The notes: generated from the letters alone by a model not told the origin. Shown: positions 2 to 15,142, counted from the stretch's first letter. The stretch: DNA of 17,265 nt from Deltaproteobacteria bacterium (GCA_013151235.1 JAADIO010000043.1:1-17265); one strand, 5' to 3'. Numbers and translations: made by a program.

Positions 2-163
2 ATCCGGCTCAAAAAAGGCGATTCCATAGACATCCCAAGGGGGGGGGTCCATCGCATTGAGAATACGACAACGGAAAACATGGCCTTTATCGAGGTACAA
101 ATGGGAGACTATTTCGGCGAGGATGATATTGTAAGGATTGAGGATGACTTCGGTCGAACGTAG
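2..163 (+). CDS. Mannose-1-phosphate guanylyltransferase / mannose-6-phosphate isomerase, C-terminal cupin end (partial)
   Basis: The 5' end lies outside the window. The visible 53 residues read in frame from base 2 to a TAG at 161-163. They show the hallmarks of the type II mannose-6-phosphate isomerase cupin: IPRGGVHRIEN (residues 11-21 of the fragment), then FIEVQMGDYFGEDDIVRIEDDFGR at the C-terminus. In the bifunctional GDP-mannose pyrophosphorylase/isomerase family this cupin follows the nucleotidyltransferase domain and interconverts fructose-6-P and mannose-6-P, while the N-terminal domain makes GDP-mannose from mannose-1-P and GTP. The fragment could also be a stand-alone cupin isomerase; the missing N-terminus decides. 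It ends 11 bases before the next gene's preferred start, so an operon with the GH130/GT4 genes is likely. A run of nine Gs (39-47) lies in the IPRGGV coding segment; the frame through it agrees with the family. Confidence 0.85.
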   Translation: MRLKKGDSIDIPRGGVHRIENTTTENMAFIEVQMGDYFGEDDIVRIEDDFGRT

Positions 164-168
164 AGGAG
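163..168 (+). promoter_or_regulatory. Ribosome binding site that decides a TTG start
   Basis: GAGGAG at 163-168 directly abuts the ATG at 169, which leaves no spacer for that codon. It lies six bases before an in-frame TTG at 175, which is optimal spacing. The TTG also gives the cleaner N-terminus MKNPTVKRYGQNPIL. The site overlaps the last base of the upstream stop codon, which suggests coupled translation. Confidence 0.6.
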
Positions 169-174
169 ATGGTT

Positions 175-1110
175 TTGAAAAATCCGACGGTTAAACGATA
201 TGGGCAAAACCCCATTCTGACCCGGCGGGATATTCCCTATCCCGTTTCCACGGTTCACAATGCCGGGATGGTCAAGCATGACGGAAGGTATGTGATGCTC
301 TTCCGCTCCCATCTTTTAAACGGCCGGTGCGTCATCGGCCTGGCGGAAAGCGAAGACGGTTACGCATTCACCGTAAATCCGGAGCCTTTCCTGGTTCCTG
401 CAACCCAAGGCGTCTTCGCCGAATACGAAGAGTTCGGGGTCGAGGACCTTCGTATCTGCGCCATGGATGATCAGTACCTGCTCACCTACAGCGCTTATTC
501 CAGGCATGGCGTTAGGATCGCCCTGGCGCGGACCCGGGATTTCAAGAGTGTCGAGCGGATCGCACTGATCTCCCAACCGGATATGCGCAACGTGGTGATC
601 TTCCCTCAGAAGTTTGACGGCCGCTATGTCCGTCTGGATCGTCCTCATTCCGAAATCTCTCCCTGGTCCATTTACATTTCCTATTCTCCCGACCTGGTCC
701 ATTGGGGAGACTCGAAGGTGGTCATAAAACCGGTGACCTATCACTGGGATGAGCTGAAGATCGGCCCCGGAGCTACACCCTTCCGGACGGACCAGGGGTG
801 GCTGAATATCTACCACGGGGTCTACCGGACCATGTCGGGAGCGGTTTACCGGTTAGGCGTGGCGCTGCACGACCTGGAGGATCCATCCAGGATAATCGGC
901 ATCTCCGATGACTGGATACTGGAACCGGAAGATCCCTGGGAGACCGTCGGCTATGTTCCCAATGTCGTGTTCACCTGCGGCGCCGTCCCGGAAGAGGACG
1001 GTACGGTAAAGATTTATTGGGGAGGGGCCGACACCGTCATGTGTGCCGGGTCCGCCCGAATCACGGACCTTGTGGAGATGTGCCTCAACCATTCAAGGGC
1101 ACCCTATTAA
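175..1110 (+). CDS. GH130 family beta-mannoside phosphorylase-like protein (short form, TTG start)
   Basis: A 311-residue protein (313 if the ATG at 169 is used) with the five-bladed propeller repeat style of glycoside hydrolase family 130. Visible landmarks are NPIL near residue 12, HNAGMV near 28, the family's G-x-E-D-x-R element as GVEDLRI (88-94, D91 the expected proton donor), an RLDRP basic segment (153-157) and YHGVYR (213-218), which match positions that bind phosphate in characterised members, and GYVPNVVFTCGA (259-270). Known members phosphorolyse beta-mannosides to alpha-mannose-1-phosphate, reversibly. The proline usual in EDPR is leucine here, so it is not a standard subfamily 1 or 2 enzyme, and substrate and linkage cannot be read from sequence. 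No signal peptide is seen, so it is cytoplasmic. It sits between a GDP-mannose/mannose-6-P enzyme and a second GH130, with only 11 bases to the next start. Confidence 0.85.
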   Translation: MKNPTVKRYGQNPILTRRDIPYPVSTVHNAGMVKHDGRYVMLFRSHLLNGRCVIGLAESEDGYAFTVNPEPFLVPATQGVFAEYEEFGVEDLRICAMDDQYLLTYSAYSRHGVRIALARTRDFKSVERIALISQPDMRNVVIFPQKFDGRYVRLDRPHSEISPWSIYISYSPDLVHWGDSKVVIKPVTYHWDELKIGPGATPFRTDQGWLNIYHGVYRTMSGAVYRLGVALHDLEDPSRIIGISDDWILEPEDPWETVGYVPNVVFTCGAVPEEDGTVKIYWGGADTVMCAGSARITDLVEMCLNHSRAPY

Positions 1111-1121
1111 AGGAACATACG

Positions 1122-2591
1122 ATGCATCAGGAATCTCTGCGGATCAGAAGAAAGAAAAAACGGATCGAGTCAAAATCGTCCAGGGTGATCACCAAATTCT
1201 TCATGCCCGGCAGTCGGGAACAGATCGGTCATATGATTGATCGCGTACTGGGTCTCTCGGAAGAGGAAGTCAAGCAGAACCTGAACCGGGTCATTGCCGA
1301 CTTTTCCACACGCCACAAGAACATCCGGCAAGTGTTCGACAGGAACTATCATGCCGTCAAAGATTATCTCCCGAACGGCAAAGAGATCTCCGGCGAAAGG
1401 CGGTGCTTGATCGGGTCTTTTTTTACCCATGAATACTCGATACAGGCGGCCGCCTTTTTTAATCCCTCCATCGTGGCACATCCGGACCAGAGCAATCTGC
1501 ACCCGGGATCCATTCGGGTGATCCTGAGTTTTCGTTCCACCGGCGAAGGGCATATCTCTTCCATTGAATTTAGAAGCGGCATTCTGGACGAAACGAATAA
1601 CATGCACTTTGACGAAGTAGGCCGCTTTGTGGAGACCCCGGAAGTCATCAACAACCCGACGTATGACAAATACGTCTTTCAATTAAAGCTGGAAGATATG
1701 GGGTCGAAGAACAACGTCTCCGAAGAAATCCTGAAGGACCTGCCCGACAGGTTTTCCTTTGTTGAACTGCAAACCGCGATCCGGAAGAAGACCCATACCT
1801 GGTATGAAGAACCGCCTGCTTTACTCCATGAGACGACAGAGAAGATGCTCTGGCTTGCCGGATCCAATTATGCATTACGATTCAGAAAGGACCGGAGGAT
1901 CTCGGAGAAAGTCATCTTTCCGGTCTCCGAAAACGAAAGCCGGGGAATTGAGGATGCACGGTTCGTTCGCTTCTGCGATGATCGAGGATCTGCCACATAT
2001 TATGCAACCTACACCGCCTACAACGGTTTCGATATCCTTCCGATGCTTCTGGAAACCCGGGATTTTGACAACTTTAAAATCAGGACCCTCAACGGCAAGG
2101 CGGTACAGAACAAGGGAATGGCTCTCTTCCCGAGAAAAATCAATGGGAAATATATGATGATCTCCCGTCAGGATGGAGAAAATATCTATATCATGTCTTC
2201 GGATAACCTGCATTTCTGGCACGAAGCCCAACTCCTTCAGAAACCGGAATACCCATGGGAATTCATACAGATCGGGAACTGCGGTTCTCCCCTTGAGACC
2301 GAGTCGGGATGGATCCTGTTGACCCACGGCGTCGGCCCTATGAGAAAATACTGCATCGGAGCCTGTCTGCTGGACCTGGAAGACCCGACAAAGGTAATCG
2401 GCCGCCTGTCCGAACCGCTTCTTTCTCCCACGGAAGAAGAGCGGGAAGGTTATGTACCGAACGTGCTGTATACCTGCGGCGCCATCATTCACAACAAGGA
2501 ATTGGTTATTCCCTATTCCATGTCGGATACCTCGTCGGGAATTGCGGTTGTTTCGGTTAAGAATTTGCTGTCCCGGATGCTGGACAGATAA
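1122..2591 (+). CDS. GH130 family protein with a long N-terminal extension
   Basis: A 489-residue protein. The start at 1122 is chosen for AAAGGAA seven bases upstream and for lying just after the previous stop (1108-1110); an open frame extends further upstream but overlaps the preceding gene. The C-terminal half is GH130: GIEDARF (275-281, D278 in the proton-donor position), LFPRKINGKY (335-344), SRQDGENIY (348-356), GWILLTHGVG (396-405) and EGYVPNVLYTCGA (442-454). Residues 1-220 are an extra region absent from the 310-residue neighbour. It has a very basic start (RRKKKR), a helical stretch, and a conserved-looking block NPSIVAHPDQ (114-123) to GEGHISSIEF (141-150). The activity is presumably phosphorolysis or synthesis of a beta-mannoside, but the EDAR variant and the extension mean the exact reaction is unassigned. 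No signal peptide or membrane segment is seen. Confidence 0.85.
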   Translation: MHQESLRIRRKKKRIESKSSRVITKFFMPGSREQIGHMIDRVLGLSEEEVKQNLNRVIADFSTRHKNIRQVFDRNYHAVKDYLPNGKEISGERRCLIGSFFTHEYSIQAAAFFNPSIVAHPDQSNLHPGSIRVILSFRSTGEGHISSIEFRSGILDETNNMHFDEVGRFVETPEVINNPTYDKYVFQLKLEDMGSKNNVSEEILKDLPDRFSFVELQTAIRKKTHTWYEEPPALLHETTEKMLWLAGSNYALRFRKDRRISEKVIFPVSENESRGIEDARFVRFCDDRGSATYYATYTAYNGFDILPMLLETRDFDNFKIRTLNGKAVQNKGMALFPRKINGKYMMISRQDGENIYIMSSDNLHFWHEAQLLQKPEYPWEFIQIGNCGSPLETESGWILLTHGVGPMRKYCIGACLLDLEDPTKVIGRLSEPLLSPTEEEREGYVPNVLYTCGAIIHNKELVIPYSMSDTSSGIAVVSVKNLLSRMLDR

Positions 2592-2602
2592 CAATCCAGT
2601 AC

Positions 2603-2608
2603 AGGAGG
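2603..2608 (+). promoter_or_regulatory. Ribosome binding site that decides a TTG start
   Basis: A perfect AGGAGG five bases before TTG at 2614. The frame is open upstream to 2452, but that part overlaps the GH130 gene out of frame. The N-terminus KKIAIIGNYLPRQCGIATF, typical of GT4 enzymes, begins exactly at this TTG. Confidence 0.75.
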
Positions 2609-2613
2609 AACCA

Positions 2614-4869
2614 TTGAAAAAAATAGCAATCATCGGTAATTATCTTCCCCGTCAGTGCGGAATTGCAACCTTTACCAGCGATCTGTGTGACGCACTTGCA
2701 GGACATATAAAAAAAAGCGATGAACACCTGATCGTCGTTGCCATGGATGATGTGGAAGAAGGGTATGACTATCCGGGCCGTGTCAAGTTCCAGATTCGGG
2801 CAAATGTCCAGCGTGACTATATCCGCGCCGCCGATTTTCTGAATGTCCACAAGTTCGACATTGCCGTCCTTCAGCATGAATTCGGGATTTTTGGGGGAAG
2901 GGACGGAGCCTACATTATCAGTTTAATCAAGAACCTGAGAATGCCGGTGATAACAACTTTGCATACCGTGCTCCAGAATCCTTCCGACGGACAGCGTATC
3001 ATCATGCAGGAACTGGCAAAATATTCCGAATCCTTTGTGGTCATGGCTCACAAAGCCCATTCGATTCTGCAGGAAGTATACGGCATCGACAATTCAAAAA
3101 TAGCATTCATCCCGCATGGAATCCCGGATACCCCTCTCGAACGTTCCGACACATTTCGCAGGCAAATCGGGTTAAAAGAGAAAAAAATTCTTTTAACCTT
3201 CGGTCTGCTGAGTCCGGGGAAAGGCATTGACATAATGATTCAGGCTTTGCCTGAAATTATCGAACGCCACCCCGAGGCAGTCTATATTGTTTTGGGCGAG
3301 ATCCACCCCTATATCGTGAAGGAGTCCGGGGATTCCTATCTTCAGGGCCTTTACCAGATTGTCAACCGGCTCGGTGTCAACGATCATGTGTTGTTCCGAA
3401 ACCGTTTTGTCGGCCTGAAACCGTTGATGCAATACGTCCGGGCCACTGATATTTATATCACACCCTACGTCAATGAGCAGCAGATCGTATCCGGCACGCT
3501 TGCCTATGCCGTGGGCATGGGGACCCCTGTTGTTTCCACCCCCTACTGGTATGCACAAGAACTGCTGGCCGACGGGAGAGGACGCCTTGTTCCTTTCAAC
3601 GACCCACACGCCATCGCGGAAGCCGTCAACCATTTGCTGGATCACGAGGAAGAACGAATGGAGACACGCAAAAAGTGTTACCAATTCGGTCGGTCAATGA
3701 TCTGGGAGGAAGTGGGCCGAAGCTATCTTCAACTAACCGGCAAGGTACTCAAGCAGACCTATGACCGGGCCATACAACAATTTACGGAAAGACCGGATGC
3801 CCGAATCGTCAGTGAACTTCCCGACATCAACTTGCAACATTTGAGAATCATGACCGACACCACGGGGATGCTCCAGCACGCAAAATATTCCATCCCCGAC
3901 CGTACCCACGGCTACTGCGTAGACGATAATGCCAGAGCACTCATTGCGGTCTGTCTGTACTACTCCCTGCGCAAGGATAAAGGCATGGTCCCCTTGATCC
4001 AGACCTACCTTTCTTTCATGAATGACTCTTTTAATCCGGAGAACGGACGCTTCCGGAACTTCATGTCCTATGACAGACGATGGCTCGAAGAGATTGGAAG
4101 CGAAGATTCCCATGGCCGGTCCATCTGGGGGCTGGGTACCACCGTAAAATATGCACCGAGTGACTCGATTCTGAAAATGGCCGCAGGCCTTTTTTCGGAC
4201 GGATTGCCTGCCGTCGAAAACTTCATATCACCCCGGGCATGGGCCTTTACCATTGTCGGTCTGCAAGCCTATATGGAAATCTTCGGCGGGGATGCAACGG
4301 CCCGCCGGTTGCGTACGGATCTTGGGGGGAAACTATTTAACCTCTTCCAGGAAAGGGCCTCGGAGGACTGGCCGTGGTGTGAAGATCAGGTAACCTATGC
4401 CAATGCCAAATTGCCCCATGCACTGATCCTCGCCGGCCAATGGATACCAAACCCGGAAATGTTCGCAATGGGAATCAAAAGCCTGAAGTGGCTGCTCGCC
4501 AGACAGACGGCACCGGATGGTCACCTCTCCATCATCGGGAATTCCGATTGGCACAACCGGAAAGGCGATTCATCGACCTTTGATCAACAACCGATCGAGG
4601 CGATGTCTCTGATAGAAGCCTGCGCCGAGGCCTTTCGTGCCACTGGAGAGAGGACGTGGATCGAAGAGGGACAGCGGTGCCTCACCTGGTTTCTGGGACG
4701 AAACGATCTGAATGCACAGATCTATGATTTTGAAACAGGAGGCTGCTGTGACGGGATTCAGCCTACCGGCGTGAACGCGAATCAGGGCGCAGAGTCCACC
4801 CTTTCCTGGCTTATTTCCCTCCTCACCATGTATAAAATCCTTGAACAGGAAGTCCTCGTTCGCAAATAA
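2614..4869 (+). CDS. GT4 glycosyltransferase fused to a C-terminal alpha/alpha-barrel-like domain
   Basis: A 751-residue protein starting at TTG 2614. Residues 1-380 form a GT-B glycosyltransferase of family GT4. The N-terminus is KKIAIIGNYLPRQCGIATF, with LQHEFGIFGG (86-95) and TLHTVLQNP (115-123). The donor-binding half has FIPHGIPD (165-172), FGLLSPGKGID (196-206) and the G-TPVVST...AQELLADGRG segment (301-323) carrying the family's glutamate. Residues 400-745 are a second domain rich in paired helices with aromatic and acidic motifs (HGYCVDDNARA 432-442, DSHGRSIWGLG 498-508, WPWCEDQVTYANAKLPHAL 586-604, STFDQQPIEA 654-663), resembling a six-hairpin glycosidase or epimerase toroid. GT4 enzymes are retaining and often use GDP-mannose, consistent with the upstream GDP-mannose gene. 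There is no signal peptide. Acceptor, donor and the C-terminal activity are unknown. Confidence 0.85.
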   Translation: MKKIAIIGNYLPRQCGIATFTSDLCDALAGHIKKSDEHLIVVAMDDVEEGYDYPGRVKFQIRANVQRDYIRAADFLNVHKFDIAVLQHEFGIFGGRDGAYIISLIKNLRMPVITTLHTVLQNPSDGQRIIMQELAKYSESFVVMAHKAHSILQEVYGIDNSKIAFIPHGIPDTPLERSDTFRRQIGLKEKKILLTFGLLSPGKGIDIMIQALPEIIERHPEAVYIVLGEIHPYIVKESGDSYLQGLYQIVNRLGVNDHVLFRNRFVGLKPLMQYVRATDIYITPYVNEQQIVSGTLAYAVGMGTPVVSTPYWYAQELLADGRGRLVPFNDPHAIAEAVNHLLDHEEERMETRKKCYQFGRSMIWEEVGRSYLQLTGKVLKQTYDRAIQQFTERPDARIVSELPDINLQHLRIMTDTTGMLQHAKYSIPDRTHGYCVDDNARALIAVCLYYSLRKDKGMVPLIQTYLSFMNDSFNPENGRFRNFMSYDRRWLEEIGSEDSHGRSIWGLGTTVKYAPSDSILKMAAGLFSDGLPAVENFISPRAWAFTIVGLQAYMEIFGGDATARRLRTDLGGKLFNLFQERASEDWPWCEDQVTYANAKLPHALILAGQWIPNPEMFAMGIKSLKWLLARQTAPDGHLSIIGNSDWHNRKGDSSTFDQQPIEAMSLIEACAEAFRATGERTWIEEGQRCLTWFLGRNDLNAQIYDFETGGCCDGIQPTGVNANQGAESTLSWLISLLTMYKILEQEVLVRK

Positions 4870-6579: not shown

Positions 6580-7119
6580 TTACATGACATGGCAGGCCAG
6601 ACAGAGATCGGTCTCCCTCGGCCCCACCGTCAGGCTGCCCCATTCCGCCAGGCAGCCATCAGCGGCATTGTCGCTAAATTCCGCGTCCACGATTCTCTCC
6701 GGATCAAGCACCCCCGGACGGAGTTTATGACAGGAGATACAGGTTACCTTTCCCTCCTCCAGACGGACATCCTGAGGCAAGGCATCGGAAGGTGTGTAAT
6801 GATTCGGTTTTGCAAGGGCATAACGGTCGTAACTCATTCCGATGGGGTGATTGACCGTCTGGTGCCCCCGGTACTGTATCGGGGTCCCGACTTCCCGGAC
6901 GACGATCAGACTGGCCGTCGCGCCATCATGACAGGCGATACATTGAGCCGAAACGCCGCCAGGGGGAACAACAGGGGCCGATGGAGCCACGCCATAGGCT
7001 TCAGCATCCGTTCCTACAATAAATTTCCGAAAAGCATCTGCAAAACGTCCGGCGTATGCCGTCTCAACGAACATCAGCACCAACGTTAAGAAAACCAAGA
7101 GGACTTTGTGGAGTTTCAT
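6580..7119 (-). CDS. Periplasmic triheme c-type cytochrome
   Basis: A 179-residue protein. It has a Sec signal peptide with a hydrophobic core at residues 6-18 and a likely cleavage after AYA (21-23). There are three haem-binding CxxCH motifs: CIACH 60-64, CISCH 127-131 and CLACH 173-177. Spare histidines (H86 in YRGHQ, H91 in VNHPIG, H107 in PNHYTP) are candidate distal ligands. The last CxxCH is two residues from the C-terminus. This arrangement fits small periplasmic electron-transfer cytochromes of metal- or sulfur-respiring bacteria; no specific named family is recognised. Purine-rich GGGAGGGAGGGAAGA precedes the ATG at 7119. The gene is preceded by a GEMM riboswitch and an intrinsic terminator, so expression is probably switched by a cyclic dinucleotide. 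Confidence 0.85.
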   Translation of the reverse strand: MKLHKVLLVFLTLVLMFVETAYAGRFADAFRKFIVGTDAEAYGVAPSAPVVPPGGVSAQCIACHDGATASLIVVREVGTPIQYRGHQTVNHPIGMSYDRYALAKPNHYTPSDALPQDVRLEEGKVTCISCHKLRPGVLDPERIVDAEFSDNAADGCLAEWGSLTVGPRETDLCLACHVM

Positions 7120-7681: not shown

Positions 7682-8437
7682 ATGTGCAACTTCTGTGGGA
7701 CATTGTTGATTTGTCTCTTGTTTGCCCTTCCGGCCTATGCCCGGCAGTCCATGTTCGATCTCCCTCCCGTCGCATCGCCTCCTCTCTACGGAAACATCCT
7801 GATCAACCGGATCTCCACGAAAAATCATCAGCTCCCCGTCGTTTTTTCCCATTGGGAACATCGAGCAAAAGATACCTGCCGCGTCTGCCATTTTGAATTA
7901 GGCTTTATGATGCAGAAAAACACAACGGAGATCACGGAAGAGGCAAACCGGAGGGGGAAATTCTGCGGAGCATGCCACAATGGAAAAATCGCCTTCGGCC
8001 ACACCAAAAAGAACTGCAAAAAGTGCCACAACGGAAACCGGACGTACGGCTGGCAGAAGTTTACGGCCTTCTCGGCAAAACTGCCCCAGGCTCCGACGGG
8101 CAACAAAATCGACTGGGTCAAAGCGGTAGAGGAAGGCTTGATTAAACCACGACAAAGCCTGACGGACAAAAACTATACACCTATGCCCTACAACAAGGAG
8201 CTTCAACTCCGGGCAGAGTGGAACATGATTCCTCCCGCCTTCTTCCCGCACAAGAAACATAATCTGTGGCTTGATTGTGCAAACTGCCATCCGGACATTT
8301 TTAATATCAAAAAGAAAACGACAAAGCATTTCTCAATGGTCAACAACTTAAAGGGGAAATTCTGCGGGGTCTGTCATCTAAAGGTCTCCTTCCCCATGAA
8401 TGATTGTGGCCGATGCCATCCCAAGATGGCATACTGA
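7682..8437 (+). CDS. Periplasmic hexahaem c-type cytochrome made of two triheme (c7-like) modules
   Basis: A 251-residue protein. AAGGAG (7667-7672) lies nine bases before the ATG. A short signal peptide (hydrophobic 6-18) ends at AYA (18-20). Six CxxCH haem motifs occur in two sets of three: CRVCH 66-70, CGACH 95-99, CKKCH 112-116, then CANCH 199-203, CGVCH 228-232, CGRCH 242-246. Each set is introduced by a F-x-H-x-x-H element (FSHWEH 55-60, FPHKKH 188-193) and has a middle motif in the context GKFCGxCH, so the protein looks like a duplicated c7/c3-type triheme unit with a linker of about 80 residues. Expected role: multi-electron carrier in the periplasm. The partner redox system is not in the window. 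The two cysteines at positions 2 and 5 of the signal peptide are not haem sites. Confidence 0.88.
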   Translation: MCNFCGTLLICLLFALPAYARQSMFDLPPVASPPLYGNILINRISTKNHQLPVVFSHWEHRAKDTCRVCHFELGFMMQKNTTEITEEANRRGKFCGACHNGKIAFGHTKKNCKKCHNGNRTYGWQKFTAFSAKLPQAPTGNKIDWVKAVEEGLIKPRQSLTDKNYTPMPYNKELQLRAEWNMIPPAFFPHKKHNLWLDCANCHPDIFNIKKKTTKHFSMVNNLKGKFCGVCHLKVSFPMNDCGRCHPKMAY

Positions 8438-8511
8438 AATGTGCAGGTCCTATAAGATCTGTTCCGCCTGCATGGTGCATCTTCTCAATACTCAAACGGA
8501 CAATCAACAGC

Positions 8512-9897
8512 ATGCGTGACAACCATATCAAATTCACTGCTCTGGGGGGGTGCGGCGAGATCGGCGCCAACGCCTATCACCTTGAGCTCGATGGAACCGG
8601 AATCCTTCTGGATGCAGGAATTCACCCCAAGAAGTACGGAAAAGACAGTCTTCCCCTGCTGGAAGGACTTCGCAAAAAAGAGATTCATGCAATCCTGATC
8701 AGTCATTGCCATATCGACCACTTAGGCGCCCTTCCGGTCGTCCTGAAGTATTTTCCGACGCCGAGGATCTTCATGACCGGCCCCTCCTTCCCCATCTCCA
8801 TGCGGATGCTGCACAACACGGTCACCGTTATGGAACGGCTGAAGGAAGAAAAGGGCGTCTCCGAGTATCCCTTCTACACACACCAGGAAATCGACATGAT
8901 CGCCAACCTCTTTCAGGCGATGGAGTACGGGAAGGCCTTCCGGATTCCCTCCATGAACGGCTATCATCGGGAGGAACTGGAAGGTCTTTTTCTGGATGCC
9001 GGGCACATTCTCGGATCTGCCGGGACCCTGATCCGGGGCAGAGAAAGGACGGTCTTCTATACGGGAGACACCTGCCGGCATGACCAGACCGTCATCAAAG
9101 GCGCCCTCTATCCCAAAGAAGCGATCGATCTTTTGATCCTCGAGAACACCCTCTGCTCCAGTCCGGAAGCGGAACGAAAAAAACGGGGGAATGAAATCCA
9201 GCGTCTCGCTGCGGAAATCCGTCGGGTCATCGACCGGGGAGGAACGGTCCTGATTCCGACCTTTGCGCTGGGCCGGACCCAGGAACTCCTCTCGATTCTT
9301 AACCGGTTGAAAAAGCGGGACCGCATCCCCGATGTCCCGATCCTGGTCAGCGGTATGGGCAAGGTCTTCTCCAAAATCTATGATCGGTTCGCCCTCCATA
9401 CACGCAGGAAGGACCCGGAACTCCTCTTTAAAGATATCCCAACCCGGTCGCTGAACTCCAGAAACTCGCTGACGAAGAAAAGCTTCAAAAACCCGAGCAT
9501 CATCGTTGCCACCTCAGGAATGTTGAGCGAAAAAACACCCGCCAATCAGCTCTCCTGGGGAATGGTGGAAAACCCGAAGCATGGGATTTTCTTCGTCGGA
9601 TACCTCGATGAAGACACCCCGGGATTTCAACTCCTGAATACTCCCCAAGGTCAGGAGGTCACCATCGACAGATTGCTTCCCCCCCGCAAGAAGGTCTGCG
9701 ATGTCCTCACCTTCCGATTTTCAGCCCATTCTCACCGGCAAGAGATCCTGCAGATTGTAGAGGACCTGACGCCTAAAAAGGTGATTCTCGTTCACGGAGA
9801 AACCGGATCGGTCGGTTGGACGGCGGAGATGATCCGGCAGATGGAAAAGGGGATCGAGGTGATCATCCCGGAGTTGGGAAAGGAGATCTGCTTGTAG
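8512..9897 (+). CDS. Beta-CASP metallo-beta-lactamase-fold RNase-like protein
   Basis: A 461-residue protein. Metal-binding motifs: HCHIDH (65-70), DAGHILGSAG (162-171), GDT (185-187); beta-CASP region with LENTL (210-214), PTFALGRTQELL (249-260), ATSGML (333-338), FSAHSHRQE (403-411) and the C-terminal LVHGE (426-430). This is the architecture of CPSF73-like nucleases, which cleave RNA using two zinc ions; the bacterial members are mostly uncharacterised. The start at 8512 matches the conserved opening IKFTALGGCGEIGANAYHLEL. The frame is open further upstream but overlaps the cytochrome gene. No good ribosome binding site is seen before 8512, so translation may depend on the upstream cistron 74 bases away. 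Confidence 0.87.
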   Translation: MRDNHIKFTALGGCGEIGANAYHLELDGTGILLDAGIHPKKYGKDSLPLLEGLRKKEIHAILISHCHIDHLGALPVVLKYFPTPRIFMTGPSFPISMRMLHNTVTVMERLKEEKGVSEYPFYTHQEIDMIANLFQAMEYGKAFRIPSMNGYHREELEGLFLDAGHILGSAGTLIRGRERTVFYTGDTCRHDQTVIKGALYPKEAIDLLILENTLCSSPEAERKKRGNEIQRLAAEIRRVIDRGGTVLIPTFALGRTQELLSILNRLKKRDRIPDVPILVSGMGKVFSKIYDRFALHTRRKDPELLFKDIPTRSLNSRNSLTKKSFKNPSIIVATSGMLSEKTPANQLSWGMVENPKHGIFFVGYLDEDTPGFQLLNTPQGQEVTIDRLLPPRKKVCDVLTFRFSAHSHRQEILQIVEDLTPKKVILVHGETGSVGWTAEMIRQMEKGIEVIIPELGKEICL

Positions 9898-10043: not shown

Positions 10044-11015
10044 TTATCTTTTTTCCCGGATCATCTCCAGCGCTACACCCGCAGCACCAATGAGACCGGC
10101 GTTGTCTCCTAATTTCGCCTTCAAAATCTTCGCCCGTTTCCTGGGCACGACAAAGGCCCGGGCCCGCACTTCTTCGTTAACAATTTCTATAAAATCCTTC
10201 CAGGCCGCCGTCACACCGCCGGAAAGGACGACCATGTCGGGATTGAAGAGATTTACCAGGTTGGCAATCCCGATCCCGAGGTAGCGTCCCATCTGCTCGA
10301 TCACCTTCAGGGAGACCCGGTCCCCTTTCTTCGCTGCCCGAAAGACATCTTCAGCCCGGAAGAAATCCTCCCGTCCCTGGAAACTTTTTTTCAAAAGGGA
10401 ACCTTCCCTTTTCATACGCCGCCGAACTTCACTAACGATCCCGGTGGCCGAGGCATACACTTCCAGGCAACCCGTATTTCCGCACTTGCATTGGGGGCCG
10501 TCCGGATTGACCGTGGTATGACCTACCTCGGCGGCCATCCCATCTTCCCCATGCCAGACCTTCCCGTCAAGAATGATTCCACCCCCGACACCGGTCCCAA
10601 GCGTCAGGCATATGAGGCTGTTGGCTCCCTTGCCGACGCCGACCCATTTTTCCCCAAAGGCCGCCGCATTGGCATCATTCTCTACAACAACAGGGAGAGC
10701 AAATTCCTTTCGGATCATTTCTTTCAGGGGGACATTCAGCCAGTCGGGCAGGTTGGGAGAAGAAACGATGATTCCCCGACGGGCCAGGATCACACCGGGG
10801 ACGCCGACGCCGATAGCCACCGCTTTGCGCCCCTCCCGCTTTTCCCGTTCCAGAGCATGCCGGATCCTTCGGACCAACTTTTCGATGACGGCATCTTTCC
10901 CGCACTCCCCTTCCGTTGAAGCCTTGCGACGCTGGAAGATCTCTCCCCGAAAGGAGATCCCGGCGACCCGGATATTCGTCCCGCCGAGATCGACACCGAT
11001 TAATGATTTACGCAT
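10044..11015 (-). CDS. ROK family sugar kinase, probable glucokinase
   Basis: A 323-residue protein. ATP-binding DLGGTN (9-14), catalytic ENDANAA (112-118, D114 as base), LGTGVGGG (139-146), and the ROK zinc site EVGH (163-166) with CKCGNTGCLE (176-185). There is no N-terminal helix-turn-helix, so it is a kinase rather than a ROK repressor. Glucose is the most likely substrate (EVGH motif, partner genes), giving glucose-6-phosphate from ATP; N-acetylmannosamine or mannose kinases of the same family cannot be excluded. Its ATG follows the GH57 stop codon with no gap (TGA then ATG), and its GGAG lies inside the end of GH57, so the two are translationally coupled. It is last in the minus-strand block. 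Confidence 0.87.
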   Translation of the reverse strand: MRKSLIGVDLGGTNIRVAGISFRGEIFQRRKASTEGECGKDAVIEKLVRRIRHALEREKREGRKAVAIGVGVPGVILARRGIIVSSPNLPDWLNVPLKEMIRKEFALPVVVENDANAAAFGEKWVGVGKGANSLICLTLGTGVGGGIILDGKVWHGEDGMAAEVGHTTVNPDGPQCKCGNTGCLEVYASATGIVSEVRRRMKREGSLLKKSFQGREDFFRAEDVFRAAKKGDRVSLKVIEQMGRYLGIGIANLVNLFNPDMVVLSGGVTAAWKDFIEIVNEEVRARAFVVPRKRAKILKAKLGDNAGLIGAAGVALEMIREKR

Positions 11016-13211
11016 TCACACACTCCACATGATCGCTTCAAAATCCTTCGAAGGGACCTCAAAGGAGAGATAGGCACCCAACGGCCATTTTTCCAATTCC
11101 ATCTGTTCCCGTTTGACGAGAACAAAAAAACTAACCTGCTGACCAACGGGCACGTTCAAGGCAACAAAGGGAATTCCCATCTCGATAATCCGGTCATAGG
11201 CGACCCTGGAAAGTTCTTGTTCCTGATTCTCTCCGCGGAGGAATTTGGCCCGCAATTTACCTTTTTCAAAAAACGCAACGATACGAATCCCGGGTGGCCC
11301 GACAAAATGAATCTCGAAAGTTAAGGATTGGAAGAGTTCCGCATCGAGATTCCGCGTCGGATCCATGCGAAGATAGAAGGTATCAAGGTCAAAGCCGTAG
11401 TAGATCCGCCGGATCAGGGAATCCGCTTGGTGCATGGTACCGCCCACGGTGGATACATCATAGAGGGCGGCGGGAATCCATTCGTAATAATTCGTCACCT
11501 GTCCGTCGATCTCGGGATACATGAAGGCGGTAATCTCCGATGTAATCTCCACCCTCTTCTCCCGAAGAATGGGCAGGAAGAGATGGTCCGGAGGGTCCTC
11601 CCCCATCAGGGTGTAGACATTGGCCAGATGTTTCCGGTAGAGTTCATCGAAATCCCGGTCGTTCTGGGAGGAATGGTCGTCCCCGTACCACCAGTTCCAG
11701 TCGCTTCCTTCGGCAATAAAGATCTCCTTCCAGGCCCGCTCTAATTTCTCCGGATCGATATTCCCCTTCTTTTCCTGTTCCGTACGCACCAGAAATTCCC
11801 GCGTTTCGTAGAGAGCATCCCAGGAAAGATTGTCTTCCTCATGCCCGATCCAGACACGAAAGTTATGGTTGATCCAGGAACCGGCATGAAGGCGGGATAA
11901 GGTTGTCTCCGGTGGAAAACGATCGAGATAGCTGCGAACTGTCGTGGTCTCGATCAGGGGATCATGACTCAAGCGGGTGTAGAGTTCCGTGAAGAAGTCC
12001 CAGCCGTCGTTCCTGTAGTGCTCCCATGCATTTTCCCCGTCAAGAATGATCGTTACCAGCGGCGCCTTTCGGCTCCCCAGCGCGGCATCCCGGATCTGAT
12101 GCAGGTGATGGAGAAAGTCCTTCGCCGCATCGGCCGGATCCCACCGGGAATAAACGAACCCGATGAGATCCGAAAGTCCGTGATCCCGGAAGAGGATATC
12201 GAGTTCCCGGCCGTCTACCTTCACCCGGTAGGGCTGAAAAAGAAAATCCTTCTTTTCCTTCTTCGCCTTCACCAAGTCCGGGAGAAGGGAACAGGTCAGA
12301 ATCTCCTCGTCGGTGGCGATCCAATGAATTCCGGCATCGGAGATAATCGGGATGATCTCCTCCGACACGGAGCCCTCCGAAGGCCACATCCCCACAGGTT
12401 TCGACCCGAACAGTTTTTCATGGTAGGCCGTGGCCATCTCAATTTGTTTACGTGCATCTTCGGGATGGATGAAGGTCCGCCGGGGCAGGGTAATCTGCGG
12501 ACAGGCATCCCGGGCGCGATCGGTGTTGCAGAGAAGCGGCAGGATCGGATGATAAAATGGCGTGGTGGAGATCTCCACCTGCCCGGTTGCGGAAAGAGCC
12601 CGGTACTCGGGAACAATCCTCCGCAACACCTCAATCTGCTTCTGCATCAAAAGGCCCTTCTCTTCTTCGGTAAAACCTTCTCCCTTTCGCAACAGATTCT
12701 TCAGAAAGGGGTCATTCTTTTTAAAGAGCGGGTCGAACCAGGTAAGATTGAACCAGACCTGGAGGTCGAGAAAGTCCTGTTCATTAAAAATCTTTTCCAC
12801 CTGTTCCAGCCGGTTTTCATCCGCCCGGAAGCCCCGTTTCTTCAGCAGGTGCCAGTAGCGAGGCCAGGGCTTGATCATATTCTCCCACTCGGCGAAAAAG
12901 AAATTGTGGAGGATGGAAATACGTTCCGCCTTTTTCAAATCCTTCGCCGGTTTCAGGGAGAGATCGGCAAAGAAATCTTTGGCCTGATGGTCGGTGTAAT
13001 CTTCGAGCTGTTCAAGGAGGCAGGGAACGAGATTGAAGTTCTGGTGGATCGAAGGAAACTCCCGAAGGATGGAGACCATATCGAAATAATCTTTGATCCC
13101 ATGCATCCGCACCCAGGGAAGACGGTACTCCCGCGTAACCAGATCTTTGTAGTAGGGCTGGTGCATGTGCCAGATGATCGCGAGATAAATGGGATCCCGG
13201 CTCGTGGGCAT
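11016..13211 (-). CDS. Glycoside hydrolase family 57 protein (alpha-amylase/glucan-active type)
   Basis: A 731-residue protein. GH57 motifs in the N-terminal catalytic domain: HMHQP (15-19), GMWPSEGSVSEE (274-285, E279 in the nucleophile position), DGENAWEHY (391-399, D391 the likely acid/base), and the region WINHNFRVWIGHEEDN (446-461). GSDWNWWYGDDHSSQND (502-518) precedes a beta-rich C-terminal region of about 180 residues. Family members cleave or transfer alpha-1,4 glucan bonds by a retaining mechanism; this long type is annotated as amylase, amylopullulanase or simply GH57, and its true substrate is not settled by sequence. No signal peptide, so cytoplasmic glycogen or maltodextrin is the likely target. 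AGGAGG precedes the ATG at 13211. Encoded between ftsB and the ROK kinase. Confidence 0.87.
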   Translation of the reverse strand: MPTSRDPIYLAIIWHMHQPYYKDLVTREYRLPWVRMHGIKDYFDMVSILREFPSIHQNFNLVPCLLEQLEDYTDHQAKDFFADLSLKPAKDLKKAERISILHNFFFAEWENMIKPWPRYWHLLKKRGFRADENRLEQVEKIFNEQDFLDLQVWFNLTWFDPLFKKNDPFLKNLLRKGEGFTEEEKGLLMQKQIEVLRRIVPEYRALSATGQVEISTTPFYHPILPLLCNTDRARDACPQITLPRRTFIHPEDARKQIEMATAYHEKLFGSKPVGMWPSEGSVSEEIIPIISDAGIHWIATDEEILTCSLLPDLVKAKKEKKDFLFQPYRVKVDGRELDILFRDHGLSDLIGFVYSRWDPADAAKDFLHHLHQIRDAALGSRKAPLVTIILDGENAWEHYRNDGWDFFTELYTRLSHDPLIETTTVRSYLDRFPPETTLSRLHAGSWINHNFRVWIGHEEDNLSWDALYETREFLVRTEQEKKGNIDPEKLERAWKEIFIAEGSDWNWWYGDDHSSQNDRDFDELYRKHLANVYTLMGEDPPDHLFLPILREKRVEITSEITAFMYPEIDGQVTNYYEWIPAALYDVSTVGGTMHQADSLIRRIYYGFDLDTFYLRMDPTRNLDAELFQSLTFEIHFVGPPGIRIVAFFEKGKLRAKFLRGENQEQELSRVAYDRIIEMGIPFVALNVPVGQQVSFFVLVKREQMELEKWPLGAYLSFEVPSKDFEAIMWSV

Positions 13212-13256
13212 TGATTCCTCCTCATCCCCCGGCTTTCATCCGGGCGACGACCGTCA

Positions 13257-13643
13257 TCAGGGAACATCCTTCTTCGGGGACAACGCCCCCTCCACATCAT
13301 GGATCCGGTCGGAATGAAAGAGATAAACGATCTCATCCTTCCGGACCATCCCCAACTCATCCCGGGCGATCTTCTCCACCACAAAAGGATCGTGACGAGC
13401 CGATTTGATCTTCACCCTGAGTCCCCCGTTCTCCTTCACCAGGGCGGCGTTCTCCCGAACCCACCACTGACGGGCCTGTTCCATTCTATGCAACTGGAAA
13501 AGACTTTTATCCCCCAACAACGAGGTAAAAAGGAGAAAAACGGCGGAGAGAAAAGCAATCATCGCCAGGGCAAACTTTAGATTCCGCTGTTCACGGGCCG
13601 GGTTCTTCCTTTGACTTCCCCTGGACGAGCGTTGTTTCTTCAT
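13257..13643 (-). CDS. ftsB: FtsB/DivIC-like septum formation protein
   Basis: A 128-residue protein. The basic cytoplasmic tail (1-22) is followed by one membrane helix (about 22-43), a coiled coil (about 50-82) and the family's closing block DPFVVEKIARDELGMVRKDEIVYLF (85-109, key residues D85, E90, R94, G98, E104). FtsB forms the FtsQLB complex at the division site and signals for septal wall synthesis. The N-terminal tail is longer and more basic than in E. coli FtsB (about 100 residues in total). The start at 13643 follows AGGGGA with a short spacer. The gene lies 15 bases after phosphoglucomutase and 45 before GH57 on the same strand, an unusual carbohydrate-enzyme context for a division gene. 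Confidence 0.82.
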   Translation of the reverse strand: MKKQRSSRGSQRKNPAREQRNLKFALAMIAFLSAVFLLFTSLLGDKSLFQLHRMEQARQWWVRENAALVKENGGLRVKIKSARHDPFVVEKIARDELGMVRKDEIVYLFHSDRIHDVEGALSPKKDVP

Positions 13644-13658
13644 TTTCCCCTGACCGGA

Positions 13659-15077
13659 TCAGTTCAGAATAAAATCCCGACCGGCCGATGTCAAAGCATC
13701 GAGCGTTGCCTCCGATGCGGCATCGATATAAAACCGGGCGACCGGTTCCGTCCCCGAGAGACGCATCAAGACCCAACTGCCGTCATCCAGAATCAACTTC
13801 ATCCCGTCAATCGTCACCACTTGCGCGACCTTTCGGCCGGCAAAGGATACCGGAGGATCCGACATTTTTACGGCAAGGTTCTCTTTCACGGACGGTGTCA
13901 GTTTCAGGTTCACCCGGCGGGTCAGGACGGTACCCACTTTCTCGTAGATCGCTGCAAGAAGTTCCCCGACGGATTTTCCCTCCCGGGCCACCATCTCGGC
14001 CACCAGAAGACCGGCAAGAATTCCGTCTTTCTCCGGGACATGTCCCCGGATGGTGAGGCCGGAACTCTCCTCGCCTCCAATCACCACCTTTCCATGAGCG
14101 ATCAGATCGCCGATATACTTGAATCCCACCGGGGTCTCATAAACCTTCCGGCCGTGAAGTTCCGCCACCCGGTCGATCAGGTGGGAAGAGGCCACGGACC
14201 GGGCTACCCCTCCTTCCCAGCCGCGGGTTCGGATCAAATAATCGAGGAGAAGGGCGATGATCATGTTCGCTTCGATATATTTTCCACCCCGATCAACGAT
14301 CCCGAAGCGGTCGGCATCCCCGTCGGTTCCGAGGCCTAAGTCGAGCCCCTCTTCCCGGACGGCGGCAATCATCTCGTGAATATGCTCTTCCGAAGGCTCG
14401 GGCGGCTTTCCGCCGAAATAGGGATCCCGCCGGTTATGCAACAGGCGGACCTTCAAACCGGTCTCTTCCAGCAAACGGTCCAGGTATCCCCGGCTGGTCC
14501 CGAACATCGGATCAACAGCCACCTTCAGACCGGACGAACGGATCACCTCGAAGTCAACCAGTTCACGGATTCTCTTCAGGTAAGCCTTCCGGCCATCGAA
14601 AAAGCGGATCAATCCCTGCTTTCTCCCCTCCTCAAAAGGGAGGAAGGCAAATCGTTTCCCGACCATCCCGGCACGGGCAAGCGCCTCGATCCGTTTCGTC
14701 GTCTCCGGCAGGGCCGGCCCACCCCAGGCGGGGGAAAATTTCAGCCCGTTGTATTGGGAAGGATTATGACTCGCGGTAAAGTTGATCGCCCCTGCCGCGG
14801 CACATTGCAGAATCTCGTAAGAAAGGGCCGGTGTCGGGATGTCCCGGTCACTGAGAAGGATCTGAATCCCGTTTCCGGCCAGGACAGAGGCCGCCGCTTC
14901 GGCGAACCGATCCGACAGAAAGCGGGGATCATAGCCGATGAGGATTCCCTTGCTTTTCAATCCGGACTCAACAATATGGTCGGCGATTGCCTGGGTGACG
15001 ACCTTCACATTTTCGAAGGTAAAATCATCAGCAATCACTCCCCGCCACCCGGACGTACCAAAGTGGATCTCCGCCAT
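13659..15077 (-). CDS. Phosphoglucomutase (alpha-D-phosphohexomutase family)
   Basis: A 472-residue protein. Start 15077 is chosen for GAGGGGG about six bases upstream and the typical N-terminus IHFGTSGWRGVIADDF; an in-frame ATG at 15119 lies upstream, at or before the promoter -10. The four family loops are present: catalytic TASHNP (101-106, S103 phosphorylated), metal loop DGDADR (252-257), sugar loop GEESSG (335-340) and phosphate loop SGTEP (441-445). GEESSG with LTIRGHVPEKDG is closer to phosphoglucomutases than to the GEMSG-type phosphomannomutase/phosphoglucomutases, so glucose-1-P/glucose-6-P interconversion is most likely. A dual role with mannose phosphates is possible and would link it to the GDP-mannose genes at the start of the window. 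Confidence 0.88.
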   Translation of the reverse strand: MAEIHFGTSGWRGVIADDFTFENVKVVTQAIADHIVESGLKSKGILIGYDPRFLSDRFAEAAASVLAGNGIQILLSDRDIPTPALSYEILQCAAAGAINFTASHNPSQYNGLKFSPAWGGPALPETTKRIEALARAGMVGKRFAFLPFEEGRKQGLIRFFDGRKAYLKRIRELVDFEVIRSSGLKVAVDPMFGTSRGYLDRLLEETGLKVRLLHNRRDPYFGGKPPEPSEEHIHEMIAAVREEGLDLGLGTDGDADRFGIVDRGGKYIEANMIIALLLDYLIRTRGWEGGVARSVASSHLIDRVAELHGRKVYETPVGFKYIGDLIAHGKVVIGGEESSGLTIRGHVPEKDGILAGLLVAEMVAREGKSVGELLAAIYEKVGTVLTRRVNLKLTPSVKENLAVKMSDPPVSFAGRKVAQVVTIDGMKLILDDGSWVLMRLSGTEPVARFYIDAASEATLDALTSAGRDFILN

Positions 15078-15114
15078 TCTTTCCCCCTCTATGGTTCTCT
15101 GAAATTCAGATGAA

Positions 15115-15142
15115 ATCATAGCACAACAAGGGGAGGATGCAA
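15115..15142 (-). promoter_or_regulatory. Sigma70 promoter for the pgm-ftsB-GH57-ROK block
   Basis: On the minus strand, TTGCAT (15137-15142), a 16-base spacer, then TATGAT (15115-15120). Transcription would start near 15108, about 30 bases before the phosphoglucomutase ATG. No other strong promoter was seen before the downstream genes. Confidence 0.65.

Follow-up and report, generated by a model that had tools for sequence, protein, structure and literature searches.

A patchily distributed bacterial gene set linking two uncharacterised GH130 clades with two glycosyltransferase-like genes

The DNA analysed here, referred to as the window, is the 17,265-nucleotide stretch from the first base of contig JAADIO010000043.1 (C43) onward in a Deltaproteobacteria bacterium with a genome of 2.62 Mb that is 99.25% complete. 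On the plus strand, positions 2 to 4869 hold three whole genes and one fragment, separated by gaps of 5, 11, and 22 bases and named GT4-I (the first gene), GH130-A, GH130-B, and GT4-II (the bimodular gene) (Table 1). Homologous loci and genomes are given L and G numbers. A reading made from the sequence alone had described four adjacent same-strand genes for building and recycling a mannoside or mannan through mannose 1-phosphate (Man-1-P); the shared strand and close spacing hold for the three whole genes, while the first gene is a 53-amino-acid fragment at the contig edge. Its two GH130 genes were recovered as such, both above the curated PF04041 cut-off of 26 bits, and they are the only GH130 genes found in the whole genome. 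The predicted bimodular GT4-like gene was likewise found to encode a GT-B domain and a C-terminal domain.

Table 1. Features of the GH130-glycosyltransferase gene set in the window
Feature	Position	Strand	Evidence and remarks
GT4-I 3' end, most likely: cupin (MannoseP_isomer C-terminal) tail, 53 amino acids	2..163	+	PF01050, E 1.1e-11; cut by contig edge
GH130-A, 313 amino acids	169..1110	+	PF04041, 188.5 bits, E 1.9e-55; Glu-Asp-Leu-Arg, Arg-Asn, three basic phosphate ligands
GH130-B, 489 amino acids	1122..2591	+	PF04041, 111.3 bits, E 6.1e-32; catalytic Asp, beta-1,2 lysine, Gln at a Lys/Arg phosphate ligand
GT4-II N-terminal GT-B domain, residues 1-382	2614..3759	+	PF13692, 63.8 bits; Z 35.8 to 6kih, 35.2 to MshA 3c4q
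GT4-II C-terminal helical domain, residues 403-748	3820..4869	+	hmmsearch E 2e-12 and Z 31.2 to YPO2471 (7tem)

The first gene is most likely, judging by its sequence, the tail of a GT4-cupin glycosyltransferase, and not the GDP-mannose guanylyltransferase proposed earlier. The fragment matches a cupin domain that also forms the C-terminal part of GMP-PMI, and the region where a nucleotidyltransferase domain would precede the cupin lies outside the contig; orthologues carry a GT4 domain there. The tail is 88% identical to L006:6158-7555 (Bacterium BMS3Bbin09) and 94% identical to L037:15532-16965 (G003), both GT4-PF01050 fusions, compared to 48% for the GMP-PMI of the same genome. A guanylyltransferase at this position was dropped because relatives with intact loci have the GT4 domain at that spot. 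Whole fusions in close relatives are 449 to 477 amino acids long, and the fusion also occurs in L012, L014, L015, and G389; in L009, L099, and L101, GT4-I has 342 to 346 amino acids, with no room for a cupin. The GDP-mannose synthase of the genome is a complete GMP-PMI on another contig (C26:27139-28539, 706.8 bits). With a GT4-cupin protein in the relatives, the conversion of Man-1-P to GDP-mannose, which had been assigned to the operon, therefore takes place outside it as far as visible. Searching the assembly for the GT4-I body gave nothing beyond the cupin tail except GT4 paralogues that matched less well, so the identity of GT4-I in the window itself is drawn from close relatives.

In these relatives, GT4-I shares 42 to 45% identity with the glucosylsucrose synthase TeGSS (tll1591; 7fg9), the residue roles of which have been described (PMC9909042). 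The donor and catalytic residues Tyr18, Glu74, Arg179, and Lys184 and the EPFG...E motif are conserved in eight relatives, whereas on the sucrose side all eight carry replacements that are nearly always the same ones (W10 by A or S, Y70 by P, Y97 by F, R117 by F, T119 by S, N122 by I, and W254 by F). This uniform replacement suggests that the acceptor of GT4-I may differ from that of TeGSS, from which many of the relatives are further distinguished by the added cupin tail.

GH130-A showed the Glu-Asp-x-Arg motif and the invariant catalytic aspartate (Asp142 of BT3780, Asp104 of Uhgb_MP) in all 12 sequences compared, with Arg-Asn at the position where beta-1,2 enzymes carry Lys-Asp. The beta-1,2 lysine is thus replaced by arginine at the position of BT3780 Lys199. 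Phosphate and beta-1,2 determinants of the family, including the role of Lys199, were taken from the literature (PMC4599007). The phosphate ligands R168, K212, and H231 (Uhgb_MP numbering) are all kept in every readable sequence, one being cut before H231, and no Glu pair replaces the basic ligands as in the hydrolases. Its linkage is not readable, because Glu before Asp, a beta-1,2 trait, is mixed with Arg-Asn, a trait of beta-1,4 phosphorylases. In the phylogenetic tree, GH130-A belongs to a separate clade (support 1.000) with no characterised member.

GH130-B was modelled as a five-bladed propeller with extra N-terminal helices and a helical insert at about residues 183 to 247 (predicted local distance difference test, pLDDT, 83.9). 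The model is closest to beta-1,2-mannobiose and oligomannan phosphorylases (Z 34 to 35; 34.9 to 7fir), followed by mannosylglucose phosphorylases (Z 31) and hydrolases (Z 29). The E-D-x-R motif with the catalytic Asp is conserved in every readable sequence, and the lysine equivalent to BT3780 Lys199 is kept. At the K212 position, 17 of the 20 readable sequences have Gln, and Ile, Leu, and Lys occur once each, with R168 and H231 retained; at this position GH130-B departs from the three basic ligands that mark a GH130 mannoside phosphorylase. A beta-mannosidase of the Glu-pair type was rejected for both enzymes, neither of which has Glu at the phosphate-ligand positions. GH130-B also forms a well-supported clade of its own with no characterised member; the two enzymes were thus not placed in a clade of proven catabolic linkage, a placement that the sequence-only reading had named, together with an importer in the same operon, as refuting it. 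Its remark that both enzymes deviate from EDPR is correct (EDLR in GH130-A and EDAR in GH130-B) but says little, and the deviation was ruled out as a mark of new chemistry, because the proven beta-1,2-mannobiose phosphorylase Lin0857 also reads EDAR.

The same reading had likened the system to the mannogen reserve of Leishmania. The GT108 enzymes of that pathway (MTP/MPT-1, -2, and -4; 6q4w, 6q4y, and 6q50) share with GH130-B the five-bladed propeller and beta-mannosyl chemistry with Man-1-P or GDP-mannose. They reach Z of about 21 with 11 to 14% identity, level with GH43 enzymes, and membership of GH130-B in GT108 was rejected on the difference from its GH130 matches. The parallel is thereby reduced to the level of the fold.

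The N-terminal domain of GT4-II is a GT-B domain by structure and by PF13692, and it conserves the GR..KG lysine and His117 in an alignment to MshA and PimA. Among 19 homologues, Leu198 invariably replaces the Arg of GR..KG and Tyr298 the second Glu of EX7E, and the GT4-II donor site is therefore not a standard GT4 one. The earlier reading of this gene as a GT4 able to use GDP-mannose agrees with the fold and family match and is not supported at the donor site, where EX7E is lost along with the arginine of GR..KG. The C-terminal domain gave no match in a Pfam scan and aligned with YPO2471 of Yersinia pestis over 323 residues (root mean square deviation 3.4), sharing its helical fold and DD.AR and GAES motifs. 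YPO2471 consists of one domain and bears the name of an exported protein, whereas the helical domain of GT4-II is fused to GT-B. Acidic and aromatic residues of this domain are strongly conserved. No described activity was found for it, nor did a literature search find a paper on YPO2471. The two domains of GT4-II are neighbouring separate genes in G138 (L111:3645-5944), and the fusion can therefore be split.

All four genes of the set are present and complete in L006, L037 (G003), L014, and G389, and the set was also seen in L118, L009, L021, and L012, whereas the contigs of L015 and L121 stop short of the expected GH130-A. Two gene orders occur, with GT4-I, GH130-A, GH130-B, and GT4-II in L006, L037, L118, L009, and L021 and a rearranged order in L012, L014, and G389. 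By record titles, mostly of metagenome-assembled genomes, GT4-II is distributed among Nitrospirae, Deltaproteobacteria, Gammaproteobacteria, Nitrospinota, Hydrogenedentota, Eisenbacteria, Planctomycetota, Chloroflexi, and others, and 16 of the 17 genomes selected by GT4-II also have a GH130 gene. Within the order of G015 (235 genomes), GH130-B is present in two genomes and GT4-II in the same two only, the genes adjoining in both. The phylum of G021, a Phycisphaera record, was represented by a sample of 149 genomes, of which 7 had GH130-B, 17 had GT4-II, and 4 had both, three times adjacent with the centre genome included (P of about 0.017 excluding the centre genome). The cohesion of the genes across genomes, which the earlier reading had expected, is thus borne out in several phyla. 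The patchy spread suggests horizontal transfer. With the terms used, no paper on this gene set was found in the open-access literature.

Variants of the locus were also recorded. In L099 and L101, both from the phylum of G021, GH130-B is absent, and another GH130 of the Lys-Asp type is present together with GT4-I, GH130-A, a further weakly GT4-like protein of 405 to 428 amino acids, and GT4-II. In G003, genes for a PIG-L deacetylase, a GT4, a GH100-like protein, and a NagB-like deaminase lie between GH130-B and GT4-II (L037:9081-12877). These look like an amino-sugar glycoside pathway and were rejected as core members, other intact loci having no such insert at this place. A single search, weak evidence in itself, gave no match for the GH100-like gene in the genome of the window.

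The closest described neighbourhood is Teth514_1785-1796 of Thermoanaerobacter sp. X-514, which encodes the beta-1,2-mannoside phosphorylases Teth514_1788 and Teth514_1789 (PMC4264767). In both, a pair of GH130 genes lies side by side close to a GT4 gene, and the model of GH130-B matches the enzymes of that cluster and Lin0857 at the highest Z given above. For Thermoanaerobacter, phosphorolysis of imported beta-1,2-(oligo)mannosides to Man-1-P feeding GDP-mannose has been proposed, and the beta-1,2 lysine of GH130-B would suit such salvage. However, the ATP-binding cassette importer, GH5, and Man-1-P guanylyltransferase genes of that cluster have no counterpart within the conserved unit at the loci read; no importer gene is present in the window either, the upstream side of which is cut by the contig start. 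Genome-wide, SBP_bac_1 is represented by one protein, the phosphate binder PstS, encoded beside PstC, PstA, and PstB. GH130-B further differs from the Teth514 enzymes by its extra helices, and GH130-A by having no beta-1,2 lysine. Given also the phosphate ligand lost in GH130-B and the position of both enzymes outside the Teth514_1788/1789 branch, salvage appears quite improbable here. Because the conserved unit has no linked importer and the sole SBP_bac_1 protein is PstS, the evidence favours an internal role over mannan uptake. The sequence-only reading is accordingly sustained where it saw no importer linked to the genes, and its preference for an internal glycan is favoured.

We tentatively propose, at somewhat less than an even chance, that the genes form a conserved, patchy module, probably cytosolic, the product of which is a soluble oligosaccharide or glycoside containing mannose. 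GT4 enzymes are retaining and form alpha linkages from usual donors such as GDP-alpha-mannose. GH130 enzymes are inverting and act on beta-mannosides. Within one product, the GT4 and GH130 enzymes should therefore have different linkages as their targets, and on this family knowledge the earlier idea of building and recycling a single linkage does not close into a loop. In the most likely picture, GT4-I would provide an alpha-linked core, and beta-mannosyl units would be put on or taken off by the GH130 enzymes. GH130-A may add or remove such a unit with Man-1-P or phosphate. GH130-B, of the beta-1,2 type with an altered phosphate pocket, could handle a second beta-mannosyl linkage. GT4-II would contribute its modified GT-B domain and a helical domain perhaps binding or trimming the product. 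The gene identities, their conservation, the changed residues, and the lack of a linked importer were observed directly, whereas we infer the product, the direction, the donors, and a reserve or protective-solute role of the module. More speculatively, and in our view unlikely, GH130-B may no longer be phosphate-led and act as a beta-mannosyl transferase or transglycosylase, which with GH130-A and the GT-B/helical fusion would make an undescribed beta-mannosyl oligosaccharide of environmental bacteria of many phyla.

Several points weigh against the proposed module. The genome-wide importer search covered a single Pfam family, SBP_bac_1. The cytosolic location is a probable one predicted from sequence. 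The body of GT4-I is absent from the assembly, its identity in the window coming from the 53-residue tail, and the clades have no member with a described product or activity. GT4-II often occurs without GH130-B in the sample of the G021 phylum, and the unit is therefore not obligatory.

Two further explanations keep the internal location or place the product at the surface. An intracellular beta-mannan that is made and mobilised, as a bacterial counterpart of mannogen, would agree with the phosphorylase signature of GH130-A, the lack of a linked importer, and a genome encoding a GDP-mannose synthase, but GT108 is no nearer to GH130-B in structure than GH43 is, no polymerase was identified, retaining GT4 enzymes would give alpha linkages, and the GDP-mannose gene lies outside the operon as far as visible; we regard this reserve polymer as rather doubtful. 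The module could also decorate or trim exopolysaccharide or lipopolysaccharide intermediates, pathways in which GT4 enzymes are frequent, and the naming of YPO2471 as an exported protein points the same way. The family-checked neighbours did not include a flippase, polymerase, priming transferase, or export gene, and a surface glycan is in our view an unlikely explanation. Taken together, these results bear out the sequence-only reading on the cohesion of the genes and the absence of a linked importer; its GDP-mannose gene was most likely misidentified, and its case for mannogen was overstated.

What is known of GH130 phosphorylases comes chiefly from catabolic pathways. The present gene set ties two uncharacterised GH130 clades to two glycosyltransferase-like genes in several phyla, in hosts for which a mannan diet is not evident. 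Should its product be a soluble mannoside, GH130 enzymes would have a biosynthetic or turnover role in bacteria, possibly for a new sugar with a protective or reserve function. Both the loss of a phosphate ligand in GH130-B and the altered donor site of GT4-II are precise, testable changes.

Downstream of the gene set, the window encodes a c7 triheme multihaem cytochrome, which scores 112 bits against TIGR04257, along with another CXXCH protein (7682-8437, plus strand, and 6580-7119, minus strand), compatible with a respiratory, perhaps anaerobic, host. A beta-CASP metallo-beta-lactamase protein is encoded at 8506-9897 (plus strand), with the archaeal ribonuclease aCPSF1 as its best model (207 bits, under the cut-off of 580 for that model). 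The genes at 10044-15119, on the strand opposite to the module, encode a GH57 protein, a ROK-family glucokinase, and a phosphoglucomutase/phosphomannomutase, and look like glucan metabolism outside the module.

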